Below are positions 13,114-60,842 of a DNA stretch of 64,000 nt, piece by piece. Numbering within the stretch: position 1 is the first letter of the stretch; the number at the start of each line of letters is the position of its first letter. The position numbers were made by a program, and so were the translations under genes. The notes beneath the pieces are model-generated. The model had not been told where the DNA came from and did not search any database. It worked only from the letters and a program-made list of their open reading frames with translations. The stretch comes from Microlunatus phosphovorus NM-1 (GTDB taxonomy: Bacteria; Actinomycetota; Actinomycetes; Propionibacteriales; Propionibacteriaceae): assembly GCF_000270245.1 (NCBI RefSeq), contig NC_015635.1, positions 2,480,001 to 2,544,000 of the forward strand, in the 5' to 3' direction.

Positions 13114-13116
13114 CAG

Positions 13117-16162: not shown

Positions 16163-16169
16163 AGGGACC

Positions 16170-16743: not shown

Positions 16744-16800
16744 GGGCCGAGCCTAGGGCCCGCCGCTGACACGAGATCTCGGCGACGCACCGCCCTGACG

Positions 16801-41831: not shown

Positions 41832-42719
41832 CTACATACAGCTGGACAGATAGGTGTAGGTCCGCCGGGCGATGGGCAGCGGACGGTCGGGACTGCAGGG
41901 ATACATGTCCTGCTCGACGATGGCGAACAGCTGCTGCGGCAGCTGCTCGGCGGCCTGCAGCACCTCGGCGAGATCCGGTACGCCGGCCGGCGGCTCGACC
42001 ATGATGTCCATCCGGACGGTCTGGGAGAACGAGATGTCCTCGGCCACGGCGCGGGCCGCAAGCTCGGGGTCGACCTGCTTGAGATGCAGATAGCCGATCC
42101 GCTCCGGGTACTTGGTGATCAACTCGACGGAGTCGCCGCCGTAGTAGGCGACATGTCCGGTGTCGAGACACAGATTGACGTACGCCGGGTCGGTGTCCTC
42201 CAGGAAGCGCTCGATGTCCGGCTGATAGCCCACGTGACTGTCGGCATGTGAGTGGAACTGGGAATGCACGCCGTACTCCTCGAGCATCCGCCTGCCCAGC
42301 TCGTTGTGCCCCTCGGTGAGCGCGGTCCACTGCTCAGTGGTGAGCCGGCGCGACTCCTTCTCGTTGCCGGTCAGATCGTCGCGCCACAGGTCGGGGATGA
42401 CGACCAGGTGCTCGGCGCCCATGGCCGCGGTCAGCGCGGCGATGGGAGCGACGTGAGCCCAGGCCGCCTCGATGGTGTCGGGGTGCTGCAGCCGGGCGAA
42501 GGTCGTGCCGCCGGACACCTTGAGCCGACGCGCGCCGAGCTCATCGGCCAGCTGGATCGGATCGGTCGGAAGATAGCCGTACGCGCCGATCTCGATCCAC
42601 TCGTAGCCGGCCTGGACGACCTCGTCCAAGAAGCGGCTCGCGGGTGTCTGGTGCGGGTCCTCGGCGAACCAGATGCCCCAGGAGTCGGGGGCGGTGCCGA
42701 GGACGACATTCTTGGCCAT
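41832..42719 (-). CDS. TIM-barrel sugar isomerase/epimerase family protein
   Basis: A 295-residue xylose-isomerase-like TIM barrel, related to IolE/IolH and AP endonuclease 2 folds. Metal-site segments are visible: YEWIEIGAYGYLPTDP, FHSHADSHVGY, NLCLDTGHVAYYGG and DIMVEPPAGVPD. The start APDSWGIWFAEDP is typical of a subgroup in inositol- and polyol-use clusters. It is not a clear inosose dehydratase, so no symbol is given. It diverges from the transketolase module over a 112-bp gap that has two inverted repeats. Confidence 0.82.
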   Translation of the reverse strand: MAKNVVLGTAPDSWGIWFAEDPHQTPASRFLDEVVQAGYEWIEIGAYGYLPTDPIQLADELGARRLKVSGGTTFARLQHPDTIEAAWAHVAPIAALTAAMGAEHLVVIPDLWRDDLTGNEKESRRLTTEQWTALTEGHNELGRRMLEEYGVHSQFHSHADSHVGYQPDIERFLEDTDPAYVNLCLDTGHVAYYGGDSVELITKYPERIGYLHLKQVDPELAARAVAEDISFSQTVRMDIMVEPPAGVPDLAEVLQAAEQLPQQLFAIVEQDMYPCSPDRPLPIARRTYTYLSSCM

Positions 42720-42730
42720 GGGGCTCCTCG

Positions 42731-42780
42731 TCGAGAAGACAGCTAGAAATCTCGATTATTGCTGGATGGACAGACTGTCC
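42731..42780. promoter_or_regulatory. Inverted repeats in the divergent TIM/transketolase promoter
   Basis: TCGAGA (42731-42736) and TCTCGA (42750-42755) form one inverted repeat; GGACAG-A-CTGTCC (42768-42780) is a perfect second one. They lie in the 112-bp region between the two divergent starts, which is otherwise AT-richer than the genes. They are candidate operators for one of the two IclR regulators at the end of the module. The link is by position only. Confidence 0.45.
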
Positions 42781-42831
42781 GCAAATCGGTAAGTTCGCTG
42801 CTGTGATGTTCGCCGATCAGCAGGAGGTGTC

Positions 42832-43779
42832 GTGGTGACAGCCGACCCAGGCGTCCCCGTCGTCAGTGACGATCTGCCGGCCCTGGCCAGGCAGGCGCGC
42901 TGGCAGGTGGTCAAGACCGTGACCAGCAGCAAGGCCGGGCACATCGGCGGTCCGCTGTCCATGATGGACCTGCTGGTGAGTCTGTACTTCCGGCAGCTGA
43001 ACATCCGTCCGGAGGAACCGGACTGGGCCGATCGGGACCGATTCGTGCTGTCCAAGGGACACGCCGCGATCGGGCTGTACGCCGTGCTGGCGCTGCGTGG
43101 CTTTCTGCCGCTGGACGAGCTGCCGACCTTCGACAAGGGCGACTCGCGGCTCCAGGGGCACCCCGACGTCACCCGGCTGCCCGGCCTCGACTCCTCCACC
43201 GGCTCCCTCGGACAGGGACTGTCGGTCGGGGTCGGGATGGCCCTGGGCGCTCGGCTGGCGAAGAAGCCTTTCCATACCTGGGTGCTGCTCGGCGACGGTG
43301 AGATCCAGGAGGGCATGGTGTGGGAGGCCGTCCAGGTCGCCGCCCGCTACCGGCTGTCCAACCTGACCGCGATCATCGATCGCAACGGTCTGCAGCAGTT
43401 CGGTCTGCCGTCGAGCGAGGACACCGTACGTACCGACCGCGGTGATCGGCGCGACCCGTGGTTCGGGGTTGATCTGGCGGCGGTGTTCACTGCGTTCGGC
43501 TGGCGGGTGCTCGAGATCGACGGGCACGACTACGGCCAGATCGACAACGCGTACGCGCTCGCGCAAGCCGGTGACCATGCCGATCGCCCGACGGTGATCA
43601 TCGCCCACACTGTGAAGGGCAAGGGTCTGTCCCTGGCCGAGGGCGTGCACACCTGGCACAGCATCGTGCCCAGTGCCGAGGACTTCGAGCGCGCCCGGCA
43701 GGAGTTGGAGCCCGATGAGCTCGAGCTGCTGGACGCCCATGCCACCTCGGCGCCGACGATGAACGGAGCTTCAGCATGA
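42832..43779 (+). CDS. Transketolase N-terminal subunit
   Basis: A 315-residue protein with the diphosphate-binding half of transketolase. The thiamine motif is GDGEIQEGMVWEA (154-166) with Asn185 in IIDRNG. Conserved histidines are His37 in SKAGHIGG, His77 in SKGHAAIG and His110 in LQGHPD. The start is GTG 42832, with GGAGGTG just upstream. The second half is encoded by the next gene, which overlaps by 4 bp. Split transketolases of this type often serve special sugar pathways, for example apulose-4-phosphate or sulfo-sugar cleavage, rather than the pentose phosphate pathway. Confidence 0.9.
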   Translation: MVTADPGVPVVSDDLPALARQARWQVVKTVTSSKAGHIGGPLSMMDLLVSLYFRQLNIRPEEPDWADRDRFVLSKGHAAIGLYAVLALRGFLPLDELPTFDKGDSRLQGHPDVTRLPGLDSSTGSLGQGLSVGVGMALGARLAKKPFHTWVLLGDGEIQEGMVWEAVQVAARYRLSNLTAIIDRNGLQQFGLPSSEDTVRTDRGDRRDPWFGVDLAAVFTAFGWRVLEIDGHDYGQIDNAYALAQAGDHADRPTVIIAHTVKGKGLSLAEGVHTWHSIVPSAEDFERARQELEPDELELLDAHATSAPTMNGASA

Positions 43780-44711
43780 CGGCGATGCGTGACGTCTGGG
43801 GCGAGAAGCTGGTCCAGCTCGGTGACGCCGACCCACGGACGGTGGTGCTGGACGGCGATCTGGCCAACTCGACCAAGGCCGACAAATTCGCCAAGGCGCA
43901 TCCGGACCGGTTCTTCCAAATGGGTATCGCCGAGCAGAACCTGATCGGCGCCGCGGCCGGCCTGGCCTCCGTCGGGTATGTGCCGTGGACGTCCTCGTTC
44001 GCGGTGTTCTTCACCCATCGGGCCGTCGACCCGATCCGGATGCTGGTGGCGCAGAGTCACGCGAACGTCAAGATCGCCGGCTCGTATGCCGGTCTGCTGA
44101 TCGGCGCGGTCGGCAAGACGCATCTGGACATCCAGGATCTGGCGATCATGCGTGCCATGCCCGACATGACGGTGCTGTCCCCGGGGGACAATCACGAGCT
44201 GGTGGCGATGATGGACTGGGCGCAGGCCAACGACGGCCCGGTGTATCTGCGGCTGACCCGCGGTGCGGTGCCGGACCTGTTCGACGCCGAGTACGTCTTC
44301 GAGCCCGGCTCCGTGCGCGAGCTGCAAGCCGGTGGCGAGGTGGCGCTGGTCTCGACCGGGCCGCAGACCTCCCGGGTGCTGGCGGCGGCCGAGCTGCTGG
44401 CTGAGGCCGGCGTCCAGCCGACCGTGCTCCACCTGCCGTGCCTGAAGCCGCTGGACGAGGCGGCACTGCTGAGCGCGCTGGCCGGTCATGACCTGATCGT
44501 GACCGTCGAGGAGCACTCGATCCACGGAGGACTGGGTGGTCTGGTGGCCGAGGTGCTCACCGCGGCGGGCGCGGCACCCAGGATCGATCGGATCGGGATC
44601 CAGGACACCTGGGGTGAATCCGCCGGCGACGACTTCCTGCTCGCCAAGCACGGACTGTCCGCCGAATCGATCGCCAATCGGGTCCGCCGCAACCTCCCGA
44701 TCCGTCACTAG
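43776..44711 (+). CDS. Transketolase C-terminal subunit
   Basis: A 311-residue protein with the pyrimidine-binding and C-terminal domains. FFQMGIAEQNLIGAAAGLA contains the glutamate that activates the thiamine ring. KIAGSYAGLLIGAVGKTH and PVYLRLTRGAVPDLF follow, and the regulatory domain closes with TVEEHSIHGGLGG. With the previous gene it makes a complete transketolase. The donor and acceptor sugars are unknown; neighbours suggest a catabolic ketose phosphate or a carbocyclic intermediate. Confidence 0.9.
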   Translation: MTAMRDVWGEKLVQLGDADPRTVVLDGDLANSTKADKFAKAHPDRFFQMGIAEQNLIGAAAGLASVGYVPWTSSFAVFFTHRAVDPIRMLVAQSHANVKIAGSYAGLLIGAVGKTHLDIQDLAIMRAMPDMTVLSPGDNHELVAMMDWAQANDGPVYLRLTRGAVPDLFDAEYVFEPGSVRELQAGGEVALVSTGPQTSRVLAAAELLAEAGVQPTVLHLPCLKPLDEAALLSALAGHDLIVTVEEHSIHGGLGGLVAEVLTAAGAAPRIDRIGIQDTWGESAGDDFLLAKHGLSAESIANRVRRNLPIRH

Positions 44712-44723
44712 GAGGAGCAGGCG

Positions 44724-45755
44724 ATGTCGCACTCTGCCGCGGATTCCCCGTTGCGGATCGGCGTGCTCGGCACGGCCCGGATCAGCACTCTGGCAATCAT
44801 CGAGCCGGCTCACCGACTCGGCGCCCGGCTGGTGGCGGTGGCTGCTCGGGACCGGGATCGAGCCGCTGCCTGGGCGGACGCGAACGGGGTGGAGCGGGTC
44901 CTCGACAGCTATCAGCAGGTGATCGACGATCCCGAGGTGGAGGCGATCTACAACCCGCTGCCCAACAGCCTGCATGCACGGTGGAATGTCGCAGCACTGC
45001 GCGCGGGCAAACATGTGCTCACCGAGAAGCCGTTCGCTAGTAACGCCGTGGAGGCCGCACGGGTCCACGAGATCGCGCGAGGCTCGGATCGGGTGTTGTT
45101 CGAGGGCTTCCACTATGCCTATCACCCGATCTTCGCCCGGCTGCTGGAGCTGATCTCCGAGGGCTCCATCGGCGAGCTGCAGCACTTCCACGTGGCGATG
45201 GAGATGCCGGCCCCGCCGCCGGACGATCTGCGCTGGTCCTGGTCGCTGGCCGGGGGAGCGATCATGGACCTCGGCTGCTACGGCGTGCATGCCATCCGGA
45301 TGCTGGCCGCCGCCCAAGGCGGCACGCCGACCTTGCTGGAGGCCGACGCGGGTGAACGGGCCGGCTTGTCGCAGCTGGACGAGTGGGCGACTGCAACCTT
45401 CCGGCTGCCGAGCGGGGCCGAGGCCACCGCGACGGCGAACATGGACGGCCCGTGGAACCTCTCCATGACCGCCACCGGCACGTCGGGACGGGTTCGGCTG
45501 GCCAACCTCATCAACGTCCATGACGACGACCGGCTGATCATCAGCACCGACAGCGGAGGCGATCGAGTCGAGCACCTGGGCACGACCTCCACCTACACCT
45601 ATCAGCTCGCCGCGTTCACCAACGCGGTCCGTAGACACGCGCCCTACCTGACCACCACGGCTGACAGCATGGCGACGATGGAGCTCGTCGACGAGTGGTA
45701 TCGCCGGGCCGGCCTGCGACCACGCGAGGGCGATCTGAGGGGAGCGCAGCTATGA
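44724..45755 (+). CDS. Gfo/Idh/MocA family oxidoreductase
   Basis: A 343-residue NAD(P)-dependent dehydrogenase: LRIGVLGTARISTLAIIEPA (Rossmann start), YNPLPNSLHARWNVAAL, HVLTEKPFASNAVEAA with the EKP lysine, FEGFHYAYHPIF, and GAIMDLGCYGVHAIRML with the Asp and His of the active site. Its length fits the xylose/glucose-fructose dehydrogenase branch. ATG 44724 follows GGAGGAG. It overlaps the SDR gene by 4 bp. Confidence 0.88.
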   Translation: MSHSAADSPLRIGVLGTARISTLAIIEPAHRLGARLVAVAARDRDRAAAWADANGVERVLDSYQQVIDDPEVEAIYNPLPNSLHARWNVAALRAGKHVLTEKPFASNAVEAARVHEIARGSDRVLFEGFHYAYHPIFARLLELISEGSIGELQHFHVAMEMPAPPPDDLRWSWSLAGGAIMDLGCYGVHAIRMLAAAQGGTPTLLEADAGERAGLSQLDEWATATFRLPSGAEATATANMDGPWNLSMTATGTSGRVRLANLINVHDDDRLIISTDSGGDRVEHLGTTSTYTYQLAAFTNAVRRHAPYLTTTADSMATMELVDEWYRRAGLRPREGDLRGAQL

Positions 45756-46540
45756 CGACCGAGAACTGGCTCGGCGGCCAACATGTGCTGGTGAGCGGCG
45801 GCACTCAGGGCGTGGGTGCGGCGATCGTGCGGACGGCGGCCGCACGGGGTGCCGGCGCGATCACCGTCACCGGCCGCAGCGCCGACCTGGGTGGTGCGCT
45901 GGTCGCTGAGCTGGAAGCAGTCGGCACGCCGGCCCAGTTCCTGCGGGTCGATCTCAGCGACGTCGATCAGGCCCGCGCCTCGGTGGCGGGCGCGATCGAG
46001 GGGTTCGGGCACCTGGACTGTGTCGTCAACGCAGCCGGTCTCACCAGCCGCGGCACGATGCTGGACACCACGCCCGAGCTGTTCGACGCCCACATCGCGA
46101 TCAATCTCAAGGCACCGTTCTTCATCATGGCCGACACGATCCGGCACCTCCGGGAGCGTGGCGTTCCCGGCAGCATCGTCAACATCATCTCGATCGCCGA
46201 GGTGGGCGGGCAGCCATACCTGGCGCCGTACGTCGCCGCCAAAGCCGGCTTGGCCGGTCTGACCCGCAATGCCGCGTACGCCCACCGGTGGGACAAGATC
46301 CGGATCAACGGCATCGACATCGGTTGGACCGCCACCGAAGGCGAGGGCAGGATCCAGCGCCAGGCACACGGGGCAGGCGACGACTGGCTGGCCAAGGCCG
46401 ATGCCTCGGTGCCGATGGGCCGAATCAGCCGCCCCGACGATCTCGCGGAGTTCGCCGTCTTCCTCTTGTCCGAACGCGCTGGTGTGGTCACCGGTTCGGT
46501 CATCGACTGGGACCAGCAAGTCATCGGAGGACAGGACTAG
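45752..46540 (+). CDS. SDR family oxidoreductase
   Basis: A 262-residue classical short-chain dehydrogenase: cofactor motif LVSGGTQGVGAAIVR, NAAGLTSRG, NIISIAEVGG with the catalytic Ser, YVAAKAGLAGL with Tyr and Lys, and INGIDIGWTATEG. The C-terminal ITGSVIDWDQ-like end (VVTGSVIDWDQQVIGG) is normal. ATG 45752 overlaps the previous stop. The substrate is presumably a sugar, a polyol or the product of the neighbouring Gfo/Idh/MocA enzyme. Confidence 0.88.
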   Translation: MTTENWLGGQHVLVSGGTQGVGAAIVRTAAARGAGAITVTGRSADLGGALVAELEAVGTPAQFLRVDLSDVDQARASVAGAIEGFGHLDCVVNAAGLTSRGTMLDTTPELFDAHIAINLKAPFFIMADTIRHLRERGVPGSIVNIISIAEVGGQPYLAPYVAAKAGLAGLTRNAAYAHRWDKIRINGIDIGWTATEGEGRIQRQAHGAGDDWLAKADASVPMGRISRPDDLAEFAVFLLSERAGVVTGSVIDWDQQVIGGQD

Positions 46541-47391
46541 TGACAACCACCACGCCGGATCTCGTCGCGACGTGCTGGACCAGTGCCGGCAATGTCGGCC
46601 CGCTCGACACGTCTGAGGCCAGTCCGATCCCGGTCCTCGAACGCGTTCGAGCCGTCGGTGCGACCGGGTGGATGGGGATGGGCCTGGTCTATGACGACCT
46701 GCTGGTCGTCCAGGACACGATCGGTTTCGCGGAGCTTCGCAGGCACGCCCACGCTGCGGGACTGAGGCACCTCGAGGTCGAACTGGCCACGGGCTGGTGG
46801 CGTACCGAGGACCAGTCCTGGCGGGACAAATGGAATCTGCTGCTCGAGGCAGCCACGGAGCTGGGCGCGGCGTTCATCAAGATCGGCACGGAGTTCGGGG
46901 AACCGGTCACTGACCTCACGATGTTCGTCGACCCGCTCCGCAGCCTCGCCGACGAGGCGGCGGCAGCCGGCACCCGGGTCGCACTCGAGCCGCTGCCCTT
47001 CGGGCTGATCGCGTCGATGCCGCAAGGTGCCGAGCTGATCCGAGCGGTGGATCACCCGGCTGCCGGGCTGCTCGTCGACTACTGGCACGTGTTCCGTGCC
47101 GGCACCTCGTTGGGCGAACTGGCGGACTGCCTGGATCCGAGCATCGTGTTCGGAATCGAACTATGTGACGCGCGTGCCGAGGTGGTCGGGACGCTGTTCG
47201 AAGACACGCGCGACCGCCGCACGCTTGTCGGACAGGGCGATCAGGACGTGGCCGGGTTCATCCGCACCATGCGTGACATCGGCTACACCGGGCCGTGGGG
47301 AGTCGAGATCTTGTCGTCCGAACACCGCCAGCGCCCGCTCTGGGACGCCTTGCGAGCGGCCTACAGCACCGCGCTGCAAGCCTTCGAGTGA
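46540..47391 (+). CDS. TIM-barrel sugar isomerase/epimerase family protein
   Basis: A 283-residue xylose-isomerase-like barrel. Segments with likely metal ligands are HLEVELATGWW, FIKIGTEFGEP, VALEPLPFGLI, GLLVDYWHVFRAG, FGIELCDARAE, and WGVEILSSEHRQRPL. The start GTG 46540 shares a base with the SDR stop. It is the last catabolic gene of the module before the regulators. It may isomerise, epimerise or dehydrate the sugar intermediate handled by the adjacent enzymes. Confidence 0.8.
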   Translation: MTTTTPDLVATCWTSAGNVGPLDTSEASPIPVLERVRAVGATGWMGMGLVYDDLLVVQDTIGFAELRRHAHAAGLRHLEVELATGWWRTEDQSWRDKWNLLLEAATELGAAFIKIGTEFGEPVTDLTMFVDPLRSLADEAAAAGTRVALEPLPFGLIASMPQGAELIRAVDHPAAGLLVDYWHVFRAGTSLGELADCLDPSIVFGIELCDARAEVVGTLFEDTRDRRTLVGQGDQDVAGFIRTMRDIGYTGPWGVEILSSEHRQRPLWDALRAAYSTALQAFE

Positions 47392-47504
47392 ACTCGGCTC
47401 AGTAGCTGGGCGGTCGAGCTGCCCGGTCCAGTTGTCCGCCACGTGATAGTTTGTCTCTCGCAGGTGGGTCCGTAGCGGTGATCCATGACGATGAGAGGAT
47501 CACC

Positions 47505-48296
47505 GTGGTCGCCAAGGCTCGCGCCAGTGACAATGACGCCGCCGGGGTCGAGCTCCTCGCCAAGGTGGATGCGGTCGTCACCATCCTCGAACGGCGCGGC
47601 GAGACCAGCGCGGCTGACATCGCCGCCTTGACCGGAGAGCCGTTGAGTTCGGTCTATCGGCTGCTGCAGAGTCTGACCGGCCTCGGCTGGGTGGACCGAG
47701 GCTGGCGCCGAGGAACCTACCGGCTGGGGCTGTCGATGCTCACCTTGGGACGACGGCTGGAGGATCGGCTCGACATCCGGGAAGCCGCGCTGCCGACATT
47801 GCGCGCGCTGCTCGCCGACATCGGAGTGACCAGCTACCTCTGCGTACGCCGCGGTCCCCGTGCTGTCTGCGTGGAGCGGCTGGAGGGCCGGGCGGTGCAG
47901 TCGCTGGCGATGCAACTGGGCAGTTCGCTGCCGCTCTATTCCGGCGCGGCCCCGCGTTCGCTGCTGGCCTTCCTGCCCGTGGCCGAGCAGCAGACGGTGC
48001 TCGACGAGGCAAGCGACGTGGTTGGCGACCCGCCGCGACCGGCCCGATCGGTCATCGAGACAGACATCGACCAGGTACGCCGTCGCGGGTACGCGGTGTC
48101 CGACGGCGACGTGACGCCTGGCATCGCCGCCCTCGGCGCACCGGTGTTCAACCACCGCGGGGACCTGGTCGCGGCGATCTCGGTCAGCGGTCTGCGGGCC
48201 CAGGTGCTGGGTGACCAGGAGCGCCGCAACATCGAGCTCATCCGAGCCGGTGCGCAGGCGGTCAGCAAGGCGCTCGGTCAGGAGGATGGATCGTGA
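47505..48296 (+). CDS. IclR family transcriptional regulator (first of two)
   Basis: A 263-residue regulator. The winged helix covers ELLAKVDAVVTILERRGETS, DIAALTGEPLSSVYRLLQSL and GTYRLGLSMLTLG; the IclR effector domain covers about 100-255 (RGPRAVCVERLEGR, YSGAAPRSLLAFL, VTPGIAALGAPVFNHRG). GTG 47505 is chosen since GAGAGG is seven bases upstream; TTG 47451 and GTG 47478 are alternatives. It follows the TIM-barrel gene and overlaps the second IclR gene by 4 bp. It probably controls the module. Confidence 0.85.
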   Translation: MVAKARASDNDAAGVELLAKVDAVVTILERRGETSAADIAALTGEPLSSVYRLLQSLTGLGWVDRGWRRGTYRLGLSMLTLGRRLEDRLDIREAALPTLRALLADIGVTSYLCVRRGPRAVCVERLEGRAVQSLAMQLGSSLPLYSGAAPRSLLAFLPVAEQQTVLDEASDVVGDPPRPARSVIETDIDQVRRRGYAVSDGDVTPGIAALGAPVFNHRGDLVAAISVSGLRAQVLGDQERRNIELIRAGAQAVSKALGQEDGS

Positions 48297-49057
48297 GTGT
48301 CGAGCGGCCGATGGGCATCCTGCAGCGCTCGGACGCGCTGGTCCGGCTCCTCGCCGAGGAAGGTGCGCTCACCCCGGCGGAGATCGCCGAGCGAATCGAT
48401 ACCCCCCGTCCCACGGTCTACCGGCTGGCGGACGCGCTGGCCAGGATGGGTTTGACCGAGACGTTGCCGGGGACCCGGATTGCCCTGAGCCGGCGCTGGC
48501 TACGTCTCGGCGACGCCGCCCGGAGTTCCATGAGCGAATGGCAACTGGCGAGACCCATCCTGGACGGACTCGCCGCCTCGACCGGTCAGACCGTGTTCTT
48601 GTGCGTGCCGCGCGGAAGGGAGGGGGGCGGACAGGAGGCGGTCTGCATCGACTGTGCCCAGGGGCAGGCGTTCAATGTGTTGCTGCTGAAGCCCGGCCGG
48701 GCTTTGCCGCTGCATGCCGGGGCCGAAGGGCGGGTGACGCTGGCGTACGGGGTCTCTGACGTCGAGCAGTATCTCGTCGGTGCACCGTTCGCCGCCTACA
48801 ACCTGCGCACCCTGGTCACTGCCGAGGAACTGCGCCGCGATATCGCGGAAACCCGCGATCGTGGCTTCAGCATCTCCGATGAAGATGTGACCGACGGGAT
48901 CGGGGCGCTCGGCGCGCCACTGCGGACTTCGCGTACCGGTGCTTTCGCCGGCGCCCTGTCGATCGTCGGGCTCGCCGACCGGCTGACAGCACGCCGCGTC
49001 GAGCTGGCCGAAGCTCTGCTCGACGCGGCGGATGCGCTGTCTGCGACCCTTCCCTAG
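48293..49057 (+). CDS. IclR family transcriptional regulator (second of two)
   Basis: A 254-residue IclR protein: LQRSDALVRLLAEEGALTPA, EIAERIDTPRPTVYRLADAL, then the effector domain with TVFLCVPRGREGGGQEAV, LKPGRALPLHAGAEG, and VTDGIGALGAPLRTSR. It starts at GTG 48293 with GGAGGA upstream, coupled to the first IclR gene. Two IclR genes in a row are unusual; they differ clearly in sequence and are not a recent duplication. They may respond to different intermediates or form hetero-oligomers. Confidence 0.86.
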   Translation: MSVERPMGILQRSDALVRLLAEEGALTPAEIAERIDTPRPTVYRLADALARMGLTETLPGTRIALSRRWLRLGDAARSSMSEWQLARPILDGLAASTGQTVFLCVPRGREGGGQEAVCIDCAQGQAFNVLLLKPGRALPLHAGAEGRVTLAYGVSDVEQYLVGAPFAAYNLRTLVTAEELRRDIAETRDRGFSISDEDVTDGIGALGAPLRTSRTGAFAGALSIVGLADRLTARRVELAEALLDAADALSATLP

Positions 49058-49067: not shown

Positions 49068-49484
49068 CTAACCCGTGACTTGGCGGATGCCGGAGGGTAG
49101 TTCGAACGCGCCGCCGGACAACTCGCCCTCGGGCAGCTTGACCGCGACGACGGGGACCGGGGCGTTGAGCAGCAGGGTCTGGCTCATGCTGCCCAGGATG
49201 GCCTTGCCGACCGGCGTACGGCGTTTGATGCCGATGACCAGGCGAGTGGCTTCGCGGGCGGTGATCTCATCGAGGATCATATCCGCGGAGTCCTGATTGT
49301 CTTTGGCCCGGCGATCGACGACCTGGACGGTGACACCGCGGGTGTCGATGCCGGTCAGATCCAGTGTGGTGTTGGCCAGGTTGACCGCGACCACGTCGGT
49401 GCCGAACCGCTCCGCCTCGGTGATGGCCTGGACCAGAGCCAAATGGCCTTGGCGGTTGTCGGTGACGGCGGCGATGACAGTCAT
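49068..49484 (-). CDS. Universal stress protein family
   Basis: A 138-residue single UspA domain: MTVIAAVTDNRQGHLAL at the start, ILDEITAREATRLVIGIKR and GKAILGSMSQTLLLNAPVPVVAV. The G-2x-G-9x-G-S/T loop is partly kept (GIKRRTPVGKAILGSMSQ). It reads in the same direction as the MFS gene upstream, 43 bp after it, and so may belong to the transporter transcript. Role unknown. Confidence 0.85.
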   Translation of the reverse strand: MTVIAAVTDNRQGHLALVQAITEAERFGTDVVAVNLANTTLDLTGIDTRGVTVQVVDRRAKDNQDSADMILDEITAREATRLVIGIKRRTPVGKAILGSMSQTLLLNAPVPVVAVKLPEGELSGGAFELPSGIRQVTG

Positions 49485-49527
49485 GAGCGTAGCTCCTCAG
49501 CTTGACTCTCGGGATGGTTGGACAGTG

Positions 49528-51009
49528 TCATTTGCGGTCCCAGAGGAAGCCGGCGAAGGGCAGCCGGCGGGGGAGTGACCGGTAGATCTCGCCGCTGGTG
49601 AGGTCTTCTTCGAGGGCTTCCAGGGAGCGGCCGCGGGTCTCGGGGACTTCGTGCCAGAGGAAGCCGAGCATGATCACGCCGATGACGGCGAACAGGAAGA
49701 ACGTGTTGGTGCCGAGCGCGCCCAACAGGGTGGGGACGAACAGGGCGAGGATCCCGTTGACCGTCCAGCCGAAGAACACCGAGATGCCGATCGCGGTGCC
49801 GCGGATCGACAGCGGGAAGATCTCGGCCAGCCAGACCCAGACGGCGATGTTGAGGAAGGACTGCATCGACAACACGAACAGCGTCACCAACACCATGACG
49901 ACATAGGGCTTGGCGGGCGAGTCGGCCGGGATCAAGATGCCGGACAGCCCGACCAGGACGTGGCAGGTGGTCGTCAAGAACAGGCCGATGAAGAAGGTCT
50001 TGCGGCGGTCGAGGCGGTCCATGTTCCGCAGCGCGAAGATGCCGCCGACGACCGCGGCCAGCCCGAACAAGGTGGCCGCTCGCAACGCGCCGGACTCGGT
50101 GAAACCGGACTGCTCCAGCACTCGCGGTCCGTAGTACATGATCGTGTTGATACCGGTGAGCTGTTGGGTCACGGCGACGCCGATGCCGACGAGCACGATC
50201 CGGCGTAGCCAGCGGTTGGACATGATCTGACCGAGGTTGGGCCTCCCGGAAGCGCTTGCCTTCTCCTCCTCCGCGACTCGCTCGACCTGGCCGTACTCGG
50301 CCAGGGCGCGCTCATTGGAGCGGACGGTCTTCAACACGGCCAGGGCTTCGTCCATGCGTCCCTTGTCGACCAGCCAGCGCGGGGATTCCGGCATTCGGAG
50401 CATGCCGACAAAGAGACAGACAGCGGGGATGGCGCAGATGCCGAACATGACCCGCCACAGGCCGTCGACGTGGCCGAGGGTGGCATTCAAGATGGCGTTG
50501 ACGGTGAAGGCGGCGAACTGGCCGGCGACGATGGCCATCTCGTTACGACCGGTGATGGAGCCGCGGATCTCGAACGGTGCCAGCTCCGCGAGATAGACCG
50601 GAACGACGGTGGAGGCGCCGCCGACCGCGAGGCCGAGGATGGTGCGGCCGGTGACGACCATCGCGAAGCCGGGGGCGAACACCACGAACAACACGCCGGT
50701 GAAGAACATGATCGACAACACCAGGATGGTCTTGCGCCGGCCGATGGCATCGGACAGTCGACCGCCGATGAAGGCGCCGACAGCGGCCGCGAAGACCAGT
50801 GAAGAGATCACGATTCCGGTCTGGAGCAAGGTGAGTCCGAGTTCCTCGGACATCGGTCCTTCCGCGCCGGAGGAGACGCCGGTGTCGTAGCCGAACAGGA
50901 AGCCGCCGAAGCAGGCGACGATCGAGATCAACCCGATCCGTTTCCGGTGCGGGCCGGCAGTCAGCGGGGGGAGCTCGGTCTCAGCCGCAGAAGCGCCATG
51001 CCCGCTCAT
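49528..51009 (-). CDS. MFS sugar transporter, probable myo-inositol uptake
   Basis: A 493-residue major facilitator of the sugar porter family with twelve predicted spans. Signatures are FGYDTGVSSGAEGPM in helix 1, GRLSDAIGRRKTIL between helices 2 and 3, PESPRWLVDKGRMDEA, VTQQLTGINTIMYYGPRVLEQSG in helix 7, and PETRGRSLEALEEDL at the C-terminus. The form fits IolT-type inositol:H+ symporters. ATG 51009 is chosen. Its promoter region is shared with a divergent inositol-dehydrogenase-like gene and has the 42-bp element found before iolB. It may be the main uptake route, since the ABC ATPase nearby is disrupted. Confidence 0.87.
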   Translation of the reverse strand: MSGHGASAAETELPPLTAGPHRKRIGLISIVACFGGFLFGYDTGVSSGAEGPMSEELGLTLLQTGIVISSLVFAAAVGAFIGGRLSDAIGRRKTILVLSIMFFTGVLFVVFAPGFAMVVTGRTILGLAVGGASTVVPVYLAELAPFEIRGSITGRNEMAIVAGQFAAFTVNAILNATLGHVDGLWRVMFGICAIPAVCLFVGMLRMPESPRWLVDKGRMDEALAVLKTVRSNERALAEYGQVERVAEEEKASASGRPNLGQIMSNRWLRRIVLVGIGVAVTQQLTGINTIMYYGPRVLEQSGFTESGALRAATLFGLAAVVGGIFALRNMDRLDRRKTFFIGLFLTTTCHVLVGLSGILIPADSPAKPYVVMVLVTLFVLSMQSFLNIAVWVWLAEIFPLSIRGTAIGISVFFGWTVNGILALFVPTLLGALGTNTFFLFAVIGVIMLGFLWHEVPETRGRSLEALEEDLTSGEIYRSLPRRLPFAGFLWDRK

Positions 51010-51152: not shown

Positions 51153-51194
51153 CTATCGCACAGTGGACGAGATGTCTAGCATCTGATAGACAGG
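51153..51194. promoter_or_regulatory. 42-bp iol operator, copy A
   Basis: It starts with CTATCG, has ACGAGATGTC in the middle and ends with GATAGACAGG. Aligned without gaps to copy B (60801-60842), 32 of 42 positions agree. CTATC and GATAG at the two ends form an inverted repeat, and a further CTGATAG follows at 51194-51200. It sits between the divergent starts of the MFS transporter and the Gfo/Idh/MocA gene. The cognate regulator is not known; the GntR and IclR genes in the window are candidates. Confidence 0.75.
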
Positions 51195-51262
51195 CTGATA
51201 GTCTGCGTTCGTAGCGCCAAGTTCCTTCTCGCCCGTTGGCCCATACCCTCTGGAGTTCGTTG

Positions 51263-52465
51263 ATGACTCTGCACGACGTCACCTCGTCGGTTCCCGAAAT
51301 CGGTGTCGCCATGATCGGCAGCGGCCTGATGGCCAAGTCTCACACCATGGGCTACCGCAACGTGGAAGCCGTCTACGGCACGACCCCGTACCGTCCGCGC
51401 TTCGCGGTGCTGGCCGACGCCCGGGAGGATCTCGCGCGCACAGGGGCCGAGTCGTTGGGTTATGAGCGCTGGACGATCGACTGGCGGGAGGCGGTGACCG
51501 ATCCGGATGTCGACGTGGTCGACATCGTGACGCCGAACTTCTTGCACGCCGAGATCGCGATGGCGGCGATCGCGGCCGGCAAGCACGTCTACTGCGAGAA
51601 GCCGCTCGCGCTCAGTGCAGCCGAGGCCAAGCAGATGTACGAGGCCGCCGAGAAGGCCGGCGTCAAGACGCTGGTCGGGTTCAACTATCTGCGCAACCCG
51701 GCGATCGCCGAGGCCCGTCGGCTGATCGCCAGCGGTGCGCTGGGAGAGATCTGGACCTTCAACGGCCAGTTCGTGCTGGATGCCTGCAGCGACCCCGACG
51801 TGCCGTTCACCTGGCGGTTCGAGCGCAAGCTGTCCGGCAGTGGTGCGCTCGGCGATCTCGGCGCGCACATCATCTCGCTGGCTCAGGTGCTGGTCGGCCC
51901 GATTGCCTCCGTCGCCGGCATCAACAAGACCTTCATCAAGACCCGGCCTGAGCCGACCGGTGTGTTCGGCTATGGAAGCGGCGCCGACCTGTCTGCGCCA
52001 CGCCGCGAGGTGGAGAACGACGACCACACCAGCTTCGTGATGGAGTTCGCCAACGGAGCCAGCGGCCATATCGAGGCATCCCGAGTGGCTACCGGTCGGA
52101 CCTGGCACCAGAGCGTCGAGGTGATCGGCAGCCTGGGCGCCCTGCAGTTCGTCCAGCAGGACATTCATACCCTGCGGCTCTATCTTGTCGGCGATCCGGC
52201 CGACAAGAAGGGCTACAAGGAGATCGAGCTCGGTCCCGGCCATGGCGACTACGGCGCCTTCTGGCCGTTCGCCGGCGTACCCATCGGCGTGCACGAGCTG
52301 AAGACCATCGAGGTCAACGAGTGGCTGCATGCGATTGCGGAGGATCGCCGTCCGGACGGCGACTTCAAGGAGGGCTGGCGCGTCGCTGAGGTGCTGGACG
52401 CGGTCGAGATCGCCGCGGCCGAACGTCGTTGGGTCGACGTCCCCGTCCTCGAGGAAGATCTGTGA
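51263..52465 (+). CDS. Gfo/Idh/MocA dehydrogenase, inositol-related
   Basis: A 400-residue dehydrogenase with VAMIGSGLMAKSHTMGYRN, DVVDIVTPNFLHAEIAM, HVYCEKPLALSAAEAK with the catalytic Lys, and LVGFNYLRNPAIAEARRLI. GALGDLGAHIISLAQVL carries the Asp/His pair. It is longer than typical IolG (about 340) and fits the larger inositol/inosose dehydrogenase branch. ATG 51263 has GGAG eight bases upstream. It runs into the next dehydrogenase gene, sharing a base with its start, and lies 70 bp after the shared operator. Confidence 0.85.
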   Translation: MTLHDVTSSVPEIGVAMIGSGLMAKSHTMGYRNVEAVYGTTPYRPRFAVLADAREDLARTGAESLGYERWTIDWREAVTDPDVDVVDIVTPNFLHAEIAMAAIAAGKHVYCEKPLALSAAEAKQMYEAAEKAGVKTLVGFNYLRNPAIAEARRLIASGALGEIWTFNGQFVLDACSDPDVPFTWRFERKLSGSGALGDLGAHIISLAQVLVGPIASVAGINKTFIKTRPEPTGVFGYGSGADLSAPRREVENDDHTSFVMEFANGASGHIEASRVATGRTWHQSVEVIGSLGALQFVQQDIHTLRLYLVGDPADKKGYKEIELGPGHGDYGAFWPFAGVPIGVHELKTIEVNEWLHAIAEDRRPDGDFKEGWRVAEVLDAVEIAAAERRWVDVPVLEEDL

Positions 52466-53475
52466 TGCGGATCGGTCTGATCGGTCTCGGGCGGATCGGC
52501 GCCTTCCACGCGACCACTCTCAGCGGCCTGGATGCGGTCGACTCGCTGGTCGTCTATGACCAGGCGCCCGCCCTCGTCACGTCGGTGGCGGAACGGCTCG
52601 GTGCGGAGCCGGCCGGCAGCGTCGAGGCACTGCTGGCCGCCGGGCTCGACGGTGTGGTGATCGCGGCCGCCACCGATGTGCATCCGGAGTTGATCCTCGC
52701 CTCGATCGAGGCAGGCCTGCCGACCTTCTGCGAGAAGCCGGTGGCCAGGGATCCCGATGTCGGCATGGAGATCTTGCGGCGGACTCAGGTGAGTGGAGTG
52801 CCCGTGCAGATCGGCTATCCGCGCCGGTTCGATGCCGCGTTCGCCGAAGCGCGTCGCGCGGTCGCCGCCGGTGAGCTGGGTTTCCTGCACACCGTACGTT
52901 CCACCACTCTGGACCCGGCGCCGCCGCCGGACGACTACGTCCGGGCTTCCGGCGGGATCTTCCGGGACTGCAGCGTCCACGATTTCGACGCCGTCCGCTA
53001 TGTCACCGGTCAGGAGGTCGTCGAGGTGTACGCGACCGGCTCCAACCAAGGGGACACGACTGTGTTCGCGGACAACGACGATGTCGACTCGGCCGCGACG
53101 ATCCTCACGTTGGACTCCGGGACCTTGGCGGTGGTGTCGAACTCCCGCTACAACCCACGCGGCTATGACGTCCGCCTGGAACTGCACGGCTCGCAGGACA
53201 GCATCGCGGCCGGTGTCGAGCCCAAATGGCCGATCCGGTCCACCGAGCCGGGTGTCACCTTCCCCGACGGCGAGCCGCACAGCTTCTTCATGGACCGATT
53301 CGCTGCGGCGTTCCGCCGTGAACTTGCCGCCTTCACCGACGTGGTCAGTGGCGTTATCGAGAGTCCGTGCACCGTCGCAGATGCGGTCGAGGTCGGCTGG
53401 ATCGCAGAAGCGGCCGCACTGTCGCGGCAACAGCACCGACCGATCCGGATGGATGAGCTCAGAAACTCTGCATGA
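52465..53475 (+). CDS. iolG: Inositol 2-dehydrogenase-like protein
   Basis: A 336-residue Gfo/Idh/MocA enzyme with the IolG-type pattern. It starts RIGLIGLGRIGAFHATTL, has CEKPVARDP, IGYPRRFDAAFAEARRAV, and FRDCSVHDFDAVRYVTG with Asp and His of the proton-relay site. Other features are the DNDDVDSAATILTL segment and length typical of IolG, which oxidises myo-inositol to scyllo-inosose with NAD+. The start is ATG 52465 or the adjacent GTG 52462. The 3' end overlaps the convergent GntR gene by 17 bp. Confidence 0.85.
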   Translation: MRIGLIGLGRIGAFHATTLSGLDAVDSLVVYDQAPALVTSVAERLGAEPAGSVEALLAAGLDGVVIAAATDVHPELILASIEAGLPTFCEKPVARDPDVGMEILRRTQVSGVPVQIGYPRRFDAAFAEARRAVAAGELGFLHTVRSTTLDPAPPPDDYVRASGGIFRDCSVHDFDAVRYVTGQEVVEVYATGSNQGDTTVFADNDDVDSAATILTLDSGTLAVVSNSRYNPRGYDVRLELHGSQDSIAAGVEPKWPIRSTEPGVTFPDGEPHSFFMDRFAAAFRRELAAFTDVVSGVIESPCTVADAVEVGWIAEAAALSRQQHRPIRMDELRNSA

Positions 53476-53788: not shown

Positions 53789-54063
53789 TATCGTTGGAGT
53801 TCGTGGCTGAGTTCGGTGAGTTCGTCGCCGCCGGCCATTTGGCGGGTGAGTTCGTCGAGGCTGACTTCGGTGCGTTTGCGGTCGAGGACGGCTTGGCCGA
53901 GTTTCAAGATGATGAAGTGGTCACTGACCAGGTAGGCGTGGTGTGGGTTGTGGGTGATGAATACCACGCCCAACCCGGCGTCTCGTGCGGCGGCGGTGGA
54001 CTTCCCCCCGTTTGACGGACACCTGACCTGAGGTGGCCACTGGTCACCAGGGAGGATGTCGTT

Positions 54064-55247: not shown

Positions 55248-55900
55248 CCCTCAACCCCGAGTGTCCGTGGAACAGGGGGAACCTCAGCGGTGTATTTCAG
55301 CACGACCCCGGACTGTTTGACGCCGAGGGCGGCGGTCGGCTCGTCCAAGATGAGGACGCGGGCGCCGAAGTAGACGGCGCGGGCGATGGCGACGCATTGG
55401 CGTTGGCCGCCGGACAGGGTGCCGATGGGCTGGTCGATGTCTTTGACCACGATCCCCATCTTGCGGAGTTCCTCATCGGCGATCCGCTTCATGTCCCGCA
55501 CCCGTAGCGGCGCCAACGGGAACCCCGAGGCCACCAGCTCGGAGCCGAGGAAGAAGTTCCGCCACACCTCCATCAACCCGACCACCGCCAGGTCCTGATA
55601 GACGGTGGCGATCCCACGTTCCAACGCCTCTCGCGGTGAGGAGAACGTCGTCTCGACCCCGTCGACCAGCATGGTGCCCTCGTTGTGCGGGTGCAGCCCG
55701 GCAATGATCTTGATCAGGGTGGATTTCCCGGCGCCGTTGTCGCCGAGGACCCCGGTCACCTCGCCGGCCTTGACGGTCATGTTGATGCCCTTCAACGCCC
55801 GGATCGCCCCATACGTTTTCCCGACATCCACCATCTCCACCAACGCCTCACCCTTGTGCAGCTCCGGGTCGGCGTGCTCACGCAAACTATCGGTCATGGG

Positions 55901-56965
55901 TCAGCCGACCTTTCGGGTGGTGGAGAGTCTCTTCACATACAGGTTCACCATGACCGCGAGGAGCAGCATCACGCCGAGGAACGCCCGGAACCAGTTCGGA
56001 TCCCACCCGGCGTAGACGATGCCGAGTTGGGTCATGCCGAAGATGAACGCGCCGATCGCGACGCCGATCGCGTTCCCGTAGCCGCCGGTGAGCAGGGTGC
56101 CGCCGACGACGGCGGCGATGATGTAGATGAACTCGTTGCCGACCCCGTTCCCGGCCTGCAACGTGTTGAACCGGTACAAGGTGTGCATGCCGACGAACCA
56201 GCCAAGGAAGGAGACGGCCATGAACAGGCCGACCTTCACCCGGATCACCGGCACACCCACCGCCCGCGCGCTCGCGGCGTTCCCGCCGACCGCGTAAATC
56301 CAGTTGCCGATCTTCGTCCGGTTCAGGATCCACGACGACAAGGCGACGAAGAGGAACCACCAGATCACCGTGTTCCACACCGTGACCGGGCCGATCTTGA
56401 ACGACCCCGCAAAAATCGTGGACAAGACGGCGTAGCCGTCCATCTGCGAAATATTCGGTGACGAGACCGCACCCGACACGAGTTTGGTGACACCCAGGTT
56501 CGCGCCCTGCAACACGAAGAACGAACCGAGGGTGATCAAAAAGCTCGGGATGCCGGTGCGCATCACCATGTAGCCGTTGAAGAACCCGATCCCCAGACAG
56601 AACACCAACGACACGACCGCGCCCACGATCAGATTGATGCCCAGGTAGTAGCAGAACAAGGCGTTGAACAAGCCCGCCGAGGTGACGATCACACCCGCCG
56701 ACAGATCAAACTCACCACCGATCATCAACATGCCGACCGCGACCGCGACAATCCCGATCGTCGACGCCGCATACAACACCGTGAACAACGACTCCGCCGA
56801 CCGAAACGACGGCGCCACCACCAAAAAGAAGATCAAGATGACTACCGCGGCCACCGCGGCACCCACCTCAGGACGAGCAAGAAGACGATTCGACCAACCC
56901 AACCGCACCCGATTCGACGCCTCCGACGGCGCACCCACCGACGCCATCCTCGTTGACTGACTCAT
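55901..56965 (-). CDS. Sugar ABC transporter permease
   Basis: A 354-residue membrane protein of the ribose/inositol (RbsC/BPD_transp_2) type with about ten hydrophobic segments. Typical motifs are GMLMIGGEFDLSAGVIV, RTGIPSFLITLGSFFVLQG, and YAVGGNAASARAVGVPVIRVK, which contacts the ATPase, then AAVVGGTLLTGGYGNAIG. It lies between the binding protein gene and the disrupted ATPase gene, three bases before the latter. Location next to iolB and iolD suggests inositol as substrate. Confidence 0.92.
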   Translation of the reverse strand: MSQSTRMASVGAPSEASNRVRLGWSNRLLARPEVGAAVAAVVILIFFLVVAPSFRSAESLFTVLYAASTIGIVAVAVGMLMIGGEFDLSAGVIVTSAGLFNALFCYYLGINLIVGAVVSLVFCLGIGFFNGYMVMRTGIPSFLITLGSFFVLQGANLGVTKLVSGAVSSPNISQMDGYAVLSTIFAGSFKIGPVTVWNTVIWWFLFVALSSWILNRTKIGNWIYAVGGNAASARAVGVPVIRVKVGLFMAVSFLGWFVGMHTLYRFNTLQAGNGVGNEFIYIIAAVVGGTLLTGGYGNAIGVAIGAFIFGMTQLGIVYAGWDPNWFRAFLGVMLLLAVMVNLYVKRLSTTRKVG

Positions 56966-56977: not shown

Positions 56978-57964
56978 CTAACGGGTGTTGTTGTTGACGA
57001 ACTCCAGCACCTGATCGATGTTGTCCTTGTCGACGAAAGAAGGACCGGTCAGCACCGGACCACCACCACCGAGGACATTGCCGTTCTTCTTGTACAGATA
57101 CAGCTGGGTGATCGCCATATATCCCTGCAGATACGGCTGCTGATCGATATAGAACTGGATCTTGCCGTCTTTGACCGCCTGTGCCGCATCGGGGTTGGTG
57201 TCGAAGGTGCCGATCTTGCCCTTCCATCCTGCCTGCTCGGCCGCCTGGATGGTGTCCAATGCCTGTGGAGCACCCAGGTTGATCACCCAGTCGATGTCCT
57301 TGTCTTGAGCCAGCTTGGCCTGGACCGTCGTGGTCACCGCAGAGTCGTCGGCACCGTTGACCTGGATGTTCTCGGTATTGGGGAAAGTGTCCTTCACTCC
57401 CTTGCACCGGTCCTCCAGGGCGACAGAGCCGGTCTGCTGAATCGTGCACAAGATCTTGGTCGCGCCTGCGGCCTTCATCCGTTTGCCGGCTTCCTGACCG
57501 GCCAGGAACTCATTCGATGCGAAGTGGGTGAGTGAGCCGGCCTGTTCGAAGTAGTCGATCCCTGAGTTGAAGCTGTCGACCGGGATGCCGGCGGCGACCG
57601 CGGCCTTGGTGGTCGGGATCAGGGAGTCCGGCGTCACCAGAGTGGTGGCGATGCCGTCGACCTTGGCGTCGATGGCGGCCTGGATCAACTGGGCCTGCTT
57701 GTCGGCCTGCGGATCGGACGAGTACTTCAGTGTCGACCCGGTGTCCTTCGCGGCCTGCTCTGCACCCGCCCGGATGCGATTCCAGAAGCTGTCACCCGGA
57801 GTCTCGTGGGTGATCATGGCGAAGGTGTAGCCCGAATCGCCGCCGCCACCGCCAGAGTTGTCATTGTTGTTGTTCGGCGCCGCGCCGCCGCCGCTGCACG
57901 CGGAGACAGTGAGGACGAGGGCGCTGGCGAGGCTCGCGAACGCGACCTTTTTCGTGATCTTCAT
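56978..57964 (-). CDS. Sugar ABC transporter substrate-binding lipoprotein
   Basis: A 328-residue periplasmic-binding-protein type 1 (ribose/inositol type). The signal peptide ends with the lipobox LTVSAC (Cys23), followed by a Gly/Asn-rich linker. The mature part has FAMITHETPGDSFWNRIRAG, DSFNSGIDYF, HFASNEFLAGQEAGKRM, and TFDTNPDAAQAVKDGK. The family binds ribose, xylose, galactose or inositols; genome context favours myo-inositol or a related cyclitol. It is the third gene of the iolB-iolD operon. Confidence 0.92.
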   Translation of the reverse strand: MKITKKVAFASLASALVLTVSACSGGGAAPNNNNDNSGGGGGDSGYTFAMITHETPGDSFWNRIRAGAEQAAKDTGSTLKYSSDPQADKQAQLIQAAIDAKVDGIATTLVTPDSLIPTTKAAVAAGIPVDSFNSGIDYFEQAGSLTHFASNEFLAGQEAGKRMKAAGATKILCTIQQTGSVALEDRCKGVKDTFPNTENIQVNGADDSAVTTTVQAKLAQDKDIDWVINLGAPQALDTIQAAEQAGWKGKIGTFDTNPDAAQAVKDGKIQFYIDQQPYLQGYMAITQLYLYKKNGNVLGGGGPVLTGPSFVDKDNIDQVLEFVNNNTR

Positions 57965-59864: not shown

Positions 59865-59906
59865 GAGGGATGTTCCTTCCACGTCAAAGAGTCGTGATGT
59901 TGGAGA

Positions 59907-60746
59907 TCAGCTGGGATAGCGGGGGATGAAAGGGAGTCGGGAGTCGATGCCTGCGTCGGGCCAAGCGTCCTGAGTCGCCTTCAGGCATGGGTCCTGGAAG
60001 GCCTGCAGGGTGCGCTTGGATGCCGGCCCGGCGAGCACGTTCAGGTAGTAGAGGTCATGGCCGTGGGCAGCCACGGTGGTGTGGTAGCCCCACGGGATCA
60101 GCAGCAGGTCGCCGTCGCGGACCGTCTGGACCAGGTCGAAGTCACGCTCGGGGGAGTAGACCCGCTGCACCGCCCAGCCGTCCCGCGGGTCGCGGAGACG
60201 GTAGTAGTAGGTTTCCTCGAGCTCCGCCTCGCCGTCGCGATCATGCTCGTGCTTGTGCGGGGGATAGCTGGACCAGTTGCCGCCGGGGGTCCAGACCTCG
60301 ATGACGTGCAGCCGGTCGGCCGGGAAGTCCGGCAGCATCAGGCTGTTCACCTGCCGGGAAGCGTTGCCGCCACCGCGGAGCTCCAAATCGGTGTCATCCG
60401 GAGTGACCAGCACGGGCGCATGCTTCGTGGTGGCCGGTGCGGCCGCGATCGCGATCTCCAGATCGGTGGTCGCGGTCACCGTAGCTTCGGTGTCCAACGG
60501 CAGATAGAGGCAGTGACCCAGACCGTCGAACACCGTCTGCCGGCCGCCGAGCTGCCAGCGCTGACCGTCGGCGGCGACGTCGGCTGTGCCCGAGAGCGGC
60601 ACCAGTGCTCGCTCCTGACCGTCGATCGGCAAGGTCAGTGAGTCACCTGCTTGCAGGGTGTGGACGGCGAAGGAGACATAGGTCCAACCGGCATCGGCGG
60701 GAGTGATCGACTCCCATCCGTTGGCGAGGATCTTGGGTTCAGTCAT
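59907..60746 (-). CDS. iolB: 5-deoxy-glucuronate isomerase
   Basis: Isomerises 5-deoxy-glucuronate to 2-deoxy-5-keto-gluconate. The 279-residue bicupin has [13 protein letters not shown] in the first cupin. The second carries the metal histidines in [23 protein letters not shown] (here HKHEHD is the core) and [21 protein letters not shown] 60746 has GGAGGAG upstream. It is the first gene of the minus-strand operon and lies 55 bp from copy B of the 42-bp element. Confidence 0.95.
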
Positions 60747-60800
60747 CGAGGGAGAACTCCTCCAGCTAGCGGGATCCGTCATCGGCCGAGCGTCGACAAT

Positions 60801-60842
60801 CTATCGGGTAGCAGACGAGATGTCCATCAAGCGATAGACAGG
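60801..60842. promoter_or_regulatory. 42-bp iol operator, copy B
   Basis: It has the same three blocks as copy A: CTATCG, ACGAGATGTC and CGATAGACAGG. CTATCG and CGATAG at the ends form a perfect inverted repeat. It lies between iolB (minus) and thrS (plus), nearer to iolB. Since thrS is a housekeeping gene, the site most likely controls iolB-iolD and the ABC transporter. Confidence 0.75.

Follow-up and report, generated by a model that had tools for sequence, protein, structure and literature searches.

In the soil actinobacterium Microlunatus phosphovorus NM-1, a split transketolase (TK) lies in a stretch of genes (positions 41832 to 49057) that forms part of an inositol locus, where it occupies the place of the kinase IolC. 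Positions refer to the window, the 64,000 nucleotides that were analyzed (2480001 to 2544000 of a genome consisting of a single contig of 5,683,123 bases). We propose that this cluster probably degrades inositol without a kinase, its split TK cleaving 2-deoxy-5-keto-D-gluconate (DKG) with glyceraldehyde-3-phosphate (GAP) and thereby replacing both IolC and the aldolase. The proposal builds on gene content, on the exclusion of TK and IolC at the same loci, on the clades formed by the proteins and on changed pocket residues, from which we infer what the TK acts on, how it cleaves it and where the products go.

The two TK genes encode a separate N-terminal subunit that binds thiamine diphosphate (ThDP) and a C-terminal subunit with the Transket_pyr and Transketolase_C domains, the catalytic histidines are present, including those on the ThDP side of TK_N, and an alignment places a tyrosine and the motif GKTH in the substrate pocket of TK_C. 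This fits the split-gene TK type, and the pair is a member of the transketolase family with predicted TK activity. The nearest solved relatives of both subunits are those of the split TK of Carboxydothermus hydrogenoformans (6yak and 6yaj), which to our knowledge has no link to inositol and which, unlike the window TK, keeps the common pocket motif GEDG. The gene families and their order agreed with an earlier note on this stretch: all frames are open, seven lie on the forward strand and the second TIM-barrel gene is divergent on the reverse strand. The note's "one overlapping operon" is borne out by overlaps of 1 to 4 bases at four junctions (TK_N/TK_C, Gfo/SDR, SDR/TIM2 and IclR/IclR), and at two other junctions the genes stand 12 and 59 bases apart. 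Its statement that the stretch holds no kinase or aldolase was confirmed, none being identified when the proteins of the stretch and of the wider locus were profiled (for aldolases this covers the window's locus and not those of relatives). Its statement that there is no dedicated transporter does not hold just beyond the stretch, where a major facilitator superfamily (MFS) porter lies at 49528 to 51009 and ATP-binding cassette (ABC) transporter genes at 53.8 to 58.0 kb; these genes, iolB, iolD and the iolG-like gene sit just past the coordinates that the note gave. Within the stretch, the Gfo/Idh/MocA enzyme is likely an inositol-isomer dehydrogenase, and TIM2, relatives of which adjoin IolG in three other loci (L136, L038, and L125), is perhaps an inosose isomerase or dehydratase. 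The divergent IolE-like protein is 59% identical to the IolE of the genome's canonical inositol operon, which likewise remains under the TIGR04379 cut-off (152.4 versus 290 bits).

The split-TK module belongs to a larger inositol locus, with IolB, IolD, IolG-like, MFS and ABC genes within 12 kb downstream (Table 1). Canonical inositol catabolism of the Bacillus/Salmonella type proceeds through IolG-E-D-B-C-J-A. The window cluster shares with it the IolD and IolB steps, probable IolG and IolE steps (both models under cut-off) and ABC or MFS uptake but is without IolC and IolA, having instead the split TK, accompanied in some relatives by an aldehyde dehydrogenase (ALDH) of the succinate semialdehyde dehydrogenase (SSADH) type. 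No frame of the 64-kb window matched the genome's own IolC at 1e-10, and none matched an IolA (methylmalonate-semialdehyde dehydrogenase, MMSDH) reference, the genome's over-cut-off matches to IolA lying outside the window at 4.237 and 2.575 Mb. Relatives of several downstream proteins also accompany the TK in other genomes: those of the Gfo protein at 51260 to 52465 adjoin TK_N in L136 (genome G508, of the same genus) and L137 (Kribbella), a 79% relative of the IolG-like protein at 52462 to 53475 lies within the TK operon of L136, and a 68% relative of the MFS porter adjoins the TK in L048. A levoglucosan/3-keto-glycoside module was considered and the cluster was not assigned to it because the Gfo protein at 51260 falls under the cut-off (375.9 versus 650 bits).

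Relatives of TK_N were collected from a scan of named genomes (76 loci), from family, class and order surveys and from plasmids. Ten distinct TK-linked IolD loci were obtained, in the window, G508, Kribbella pittospori G511, G644, G571, G642, G682, G044, G747 (a Thermaceae metagenome-assembled genome, or MAG) and NZ_CP126261 (a Curtobacterium plasmid, L125), with L047 and L137 being one locus and counted once. Split TK is present in all 10 by definition of the set, and IolC was found in none of them (nine further loci and the whole window). Among 35 ordinary IolD loci, IolC was near in 33 (the exceptions being L181 and L192) and split TK in 0; these controls were about every fourth entry of the class list (at least 145 of 394 genomes matched) and not a random draw, G386 and G150 were left out and some of the windows were clipped at contig ends. 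Likewise, no TK was present at five further loci retrieved through their IolC in TK-type genomes. These results demonstrate that TK and IolC exclude each other at IolD loci. IolB was present in 9 of the 10 TK-linked loci (it was not seen in L143), and L038, L139 and L141 have the compact order IolD-TK_N-TK_C-IolB. On the L125 plasmid, TK_C is directly followed by a PfkB kinase (15883 to 16926) that scored 194.6 bits as a 1-phosphofructokinase relative and hardly at all, 33.5 of 300, as IolC.

A screen of 86 loci (L037 to L122) identified IolD, at no less than 40%, in three (L038, L047, and L049), all with clade TKs. The spread searches scored only five candidates per genome in most genomes, and their counts are lower bounds: in the class, at least 2 of 394 genomes had a TK_N match at E≤1e-85, and in the order at least 11 of 391 had one at 1e-80, own genome included in both; TK_C was matched at 1e-70 in at least 42 of 396 phylum genomes, where among the matches listed none but the genome's own exceeded 46% identity. 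Members of the Actinomycetota, a plasmid and a MAG of the Deinococcota carry loci that combine a GKTH-type TK with IolD. Gene context lends good support to assigning this TK to inositol breakdown, as a predicted replacement of IolC.

In a tree of 33 rows, hand-chosen from about 100 loci with most clostridial loci left out, 14 TKs including those of the IolD-linked loci formed one clade (support, 100/99). Every one of the 14 clade rows has GKTH, against 0 of the 19 others, and all 14 have a tyrosine in place of TktA His461 and have lost Asp469. Arg358 and Arg520 (TktA numbering, assigned by alignment via 6yaj and human TK) are retained, as are the histidines on the ThDP side. The 10 TK-linked IolDs grouped on one side of an IolD tree with 51 rows (SH-aLRT, 93), eight of them at 100; this tree came from a quick search with no bootstrap, and in it L143 is a long branch with masked bases. 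Six genomes carry one IolD of each kind. We lean toward the view that this is a natural TK clade specialized for a 2-deoxy-5-keto-aldonate, serving an ATP-sparing inositol route together with a co-evolved IolD lineage, with the GKTH lysine and the loss of His461 and Asp469 as the specificity switch.

In the proposed route, inositol would be converted to DKG via IolG, IolE, IolD and IolB, the product of IolB being the ketose DKG. The split TK would then move the C5-C6 two-carbon ketol unit of DKG to GAP, giving xylulose-5-phosphate and D-malic semialdehyde, a step that would take the place of phosphorylation by IolC and cleavage by the aldolase. By Fischer-projection reasoning, DKG read from C6 is a D-threo ketose like fructose and xylulose, the usual form of TK donors, and cleavage between C4 and C5 gives an aldehyde configured like D-malate. 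D-Malic semialdehyde could be oxidized to D-malate by a dehydrogenase of the SSADH or malic-semialdehyde type, and a TTC/D-malate dehydrogenase could then convert D-malate to pyruvate and CO2; other routes for the C4 unit are also conceivable. Most likely, the TK substrate is a ring-opened ketose acid derived from IolD and IolB and not a cyclitol. The earlier note had suggested that the module may act on a nonphosphorylated or cyclic polyol related to inositol; the catabolic split TK without a kinase and the inositol link have held up, and a cyclitol as the substrate of the TK itself appears unlikely. Its premise that known split-TK pathways need a sugar phosphate was too strong, since the sulfo-transketolase route (SqwGH) uses sulfofructose, an unphosphorylated ketose donor, only the acceptor GAP being phosphorylated and xylulose-5-phosphate being a product (PMC11659671).

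Several known systems resemble this scheme in part. With the SqwGH sulfoquinovose route it shares a split TK and the proposed unphosphorylated donor, GAP acceptor and xylulose-5-phosphate product, but SqwGH has a sulfofructose donor, two TK rounds and a sulfonate product, whereas the donor here would be an inositol-derived keto acid. Unlike in the apulose-4-phosphate pathway, there is no sugar kinase beside the window TK among the profiled locus proteins. A combination of TK and SSADH was reportedly suggested by Salusjarvi in 2004. In PMC12016104, validation of that suggestion is said to be lacking, and an E. coli TktA variant (R358I/H461S/R520Q) is described that converts 5-keto-D-gluconate to tartaric semialdehyde. 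This engineered enzyme has the type of donor that is proposed here, a C4 semialdehyde acid product, a proposed use of SSADH and an alteration at position 461; the window TK differs in being natural and split, in keeping both arginines and in its proposed 2-deoxy donor. The lower half of carnitine breakdown, reconstituted from malic semialdehyde through D-malate to pyruvate (PMC11353897), is similar in its SSADH-like ALDH, D-malate and beta-decarboxylating dehydrogenase leading to pyruvate, but there the semialdehyde arises from carnitine monooxygenase and here it would arise from the TK.

Companion genes in some of the loci (SSADH-type ALDH, D-malate/tartrate dehydrogenase and phosphoenolpyruvate carboxykinase, PEPCK) suggest a C4 product. 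An SSADH-type ALDH, only 34% identical to IolA, was present in 5 of the 10 TK-linked loci, beginning in L049 about 7.5 kb after TK_C. The ALDH of L136 has a match at 4e-133 to 8S33, a malic semialdehyde dehydrogenase, and retains Arg166, Arg284, Cys290 and Ser447 (8S33 numbers, mapped by manual count), four residues that are present in general SSADHs as well. In L049 and in the paralog locus L023, an immediate neighbor of the TK is a dehydrogenase that passes the TTC-family cut-off, its nearest solved chain being the tartrate dehydrogenase/decarboxylase 3flk, and PEPCK is present in L125. In L138 and L141, genes for a Zn alcohol dehydrogenase and an HpaB-like protein (167 of 480 bits for the HpaB model in L141) come after IolD-TK-IolB. 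The HpaB-like gene recalls 4-hydroxybutyryl-CoA dehydratase, and in these loci the C4 unit is perhaps reduced and fermented.

A number of observations weigh against cleavage of DKG by this TK. The IolE and IolG models in the window remained under cut-off (137.9 of 290 and 299.9 of 355 bits), as did the rhizopine-type binding-protein model (171.9 of 420). Arg358 and Arg520, both changed in the engineered TktA variant, are retained in the clade. Tyr461 and the loss of Asp469 are common to a sister pair, L039/L142, which has no IolD, and the GKTH lysine is therefore the distinctive mark of the clade. An SSADH-type ALDH was not present in the fetched stretch of 5 of the 10 loci, the window among them, and the ALDH of L136 cannot separate malic from succinic semialdehyde because general SSADHs match it slightly better than does 8S33 (472 versus 448 bits). 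TTC was limited to 1 of the 10 loci plus L023, and PEPCK to 1 of 10. Finally, 6 of the 9 distinct TK-type genomes carry an over-cut-off IolC elsewhere, so that TK is the sole visible route in at most three: G044 (100% complete), G682 (only 80% complete) and G747, a MAG of no given completeness with a best IolC score of 161.7 of 300. The IolC genes kept elsewhere would also fit a TK that has an auxiliary part in the pentose phosphate pathway and keeps sugar phosphates in balance while the cell grows on inositol, DKG still passing through IolC and the aldolase. We regard this as very unlikely, given that neither IolC nor IolA is visible in G044 and G747 (MMSDH/IolA being absent at E 1e-100, while G682 has two), that a full-size TK is already present in the window's genome and that all clade members examined have an altered pocket.

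Four clade members (L023, L048, L124, and L140) are without IolD in the fetched stretch, which speaks both against DKG as the substrate and for a TK that acts on 5-keto-aldonates of the 5-keto-gluconate/idonate type, yielding tartaric semialdehyde and tartrate, with the inositol genes reflecting shared regulation or neighborhood. The name tartrate dehydrogenase borne by TTC, the grouping of the SDR with sugar-acid and polyol dehydrogenases and the in vitro TK reaction with 5-keto-gluconate (PMC12016104) point the same way, but the compact IolD-TK_N-TK_C-IolB loci, the lack of IolC in all 10 linked loci and the separate branch of the linked IolDs argue against it, and we consider it unlikely. 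The several extra dehydrogenases and the second TIM barrel that accompany the TK could instead indicate action at another point, where the SDR, Gfo and TIM enzymes would supply the TK with a ring diketone or open-chain hexuronate from another cyclitol. IolB is kept in 9 of the 10 loci, which places the ketose acid before the TK, and this alternative appears very unlikely. DKG cleavage stays the favored function. In two of the loci with GKTH-clade TKs and no IolD nearby, L140 (G617) and L124 (G272), another 5-keto acid may be the substrate; an ALDH adjoining the TK of L140 is 54% identical to that of L136.

We also surveyed the other TK and inositol genes of the genome. C1:1555156 holds a separate full-size TK frame of 752 residues that scores 430 bits for Transketolase_N, and C1:3448144 another split TK, with a TK_N 81% identical to that of the window. 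The possibility raised in the earlier note that the two subunits are the cell's only TK is thereby excluded, and a housekeeping role was rejected on account of the full-size enzyme. The second split-TK locus (L023, G000:C1:3437000-3456900, 8602 to 13495) holds TK_N, TK_C, a surviving TTC tartrate/D-malate dehydrogenase frame and a short ALDH remnant (8659 to 8832); by eye, a TIM barrel resembling hydroxypyruvate isomerase and a short frame of Gfo type were also noted there. At C1:4.237-4.245 Mb lies a canonical inositol operon with IolC (393.5 bits), MMSDH/IolA (685.6 bits), a second IolD, an IolE, an IolB identified by 37% likeness and a gene for a putative aldolase of the actinobacterial type. 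In L136, an ALDH follows IolD and the ABC ATPase frame of 515 residues is unbroken; the window had no match to an L136-type ALDH, and the best ALDH elsewhere in the genome reached only 54% to that of L136, so that no close one was found. The window cluster looks partly decayed, with no ALDH and an ABC ATPase split by an IS3-family element. Because the dedicated ALDH is absent and one transporter gene is broken, the pathway may in this strain be impaired or partial or may lean on an SSADH encoded elsewhere.

Among the papers listed by searches of the open literature, none was found on a transketolase in inositol breakdown, most subscription papers and all bioRxiv preprints being outside the search, and our results point to an undescribed way of degrading this common plant polyol. 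The catabolism of inositol is generally regarded as a single conserved route. A survey of 193,757 genomes treats IolC as a core gene and attributes the absence of one of the four core genes from a cluster to frameshifts, to errors of assembly or to incomplete genomes (PMC9430895). If the proposal is true, the TK route accounts for some iolC-less clusters, D-malate becomes a product of inositol, the ATP spent by IolC is saved and a natural enzyme exists for conversion of a 5-keto-aldonate to a C4 semialdehyde, a reaction now pursued by engineering.

Table 1. Features of the split-TK stretch and of the adjoining inositol locus (window positions; SDR, short-chain dehydrogenase/reductase)
Feature	Position	Strand	Evidence or remark
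IolE-like inosose dehydratase, divergent TIM barrel	41832..42719	-	TIGR04379, 137.9 bits, under 290; best PDB matches 3cny and 9zmu, both IolE
Split TK N-terminal subunit (TK_N), ThDP-binding	42832..43779	+	PF00456 Transketolase_N, 5e-52; nearest solved chain 6yak N-subunit, 3.7e-75
Split TK C-terminal subunit (TK_C)	43776..44711	+	PF02779 Transket_pyr, 3e-36; PF02780 Transketolase_C, 1e-24; nearest solved chain 6yaj, 2.2e-76
Gfo/Idh/MocA dehydrogenase	44724..45755	+	Profile match; 58% relative in L136 beside TIM2, IolG and TK
SDR dehydrogenase, NF004847 subfamily	45752..46540	+	374.5 bits, cut-off 240; about 60% relative in L136 cluster
TIM2, xylose-isomerase-like TIM barrel, AP_endonuc_2	46540..47391, start codon inferred	+	PF01261; weak PDB matches including IolI 1i60
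IclR-family regulator 1	47451..48296	+	Profile match
IclR-family regulator 2	48293..49057	+	Profile match
MFS sugar porter, probable uptake	49528..51009, start codon inferred	-	TIGR00879, 325 bits, cut-off 237.8
Palindrome, second copy	51173..51192	+	1 mismatch; upstream of Gfo-iolG pair
Gfo/Idh dehydrogenase, levoglucosan-dehydrogenase-like	51260..52465	+	375.9 bits, under 650
IolG-like inositol dehydrogenase	52462..53475	+	TIGR04380, 299.9 bits, under 355
ABC sugar ATPase, 3' part past IS3	53791..54003	-	tblastn with intact L136 protein; unaltered pieces matched
IS3-family element with terminal inverted repeats	about 54002-55281		Inside ABC ATPase gene, gene parts on both sides
ABC sugar ATPase, 5' part	55286..55897	-	Interrupted by IS3-family element
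ABC sugar permease	55901..56965	-	Profile match
ABC substrate-binding protein, nearest to rhizopine type	56978..57964	-	NF052284, 171.9 bits, under 420
IolD, trihydroxycyclohexane-1,2-dione hydrolase, TK-linked branch	57990..59882	-	TIGR04377, 847.6 bits, cut-off 715; tree
IolB, 5-deoxyglucuronate isomerase	59907..60782	-	TIGR04378, 343.7 bits, cut-off 205
Palindrome TGTCCATC-N4-GATAGACA, candidate operator	60821..60840	+	Upstream of iolB

An IclR pair like that of the window is also found in L136, L139, L141, L143, L038, L125 and L048. Besides the two copies of the candidate operator palindrome listed in Table 1, two with 3 mismatches each lie in the iolB/TK gap of Kribbella (L137:11529 and 11552), the closest copy in the TIM1/TK gap of the window has 4 mismatches and none under 6 mismatches was found in the L136 gap. 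At 3 mismatches or fewer, 6 copies were found versus 0.61 expected, a figure that is circular for two of the six because those window sites themselves served to define the pattern.

Directly downstream of the IolE-like gene, a PhyH dioxygenase (40547 to about 41722, reverse strand) was considered as a part of the module and excluded because none of the 13 other clade TK loci holds a relative; a cyclitol-ether substrate might be conceivable for it. A reverse-strand frame at about 49070 to 49485, between IclR2 and the MFS gene, resembles a universal stress protein by eye. The sister split-TK pair L039/L142 has the pocket sequence GSTGMSH and an adjacent small cupin-like frame, and L039 also has molybdenum-hydroxylase-like genes (both noted by eye); this pair possibly represents another undescribed TK route.

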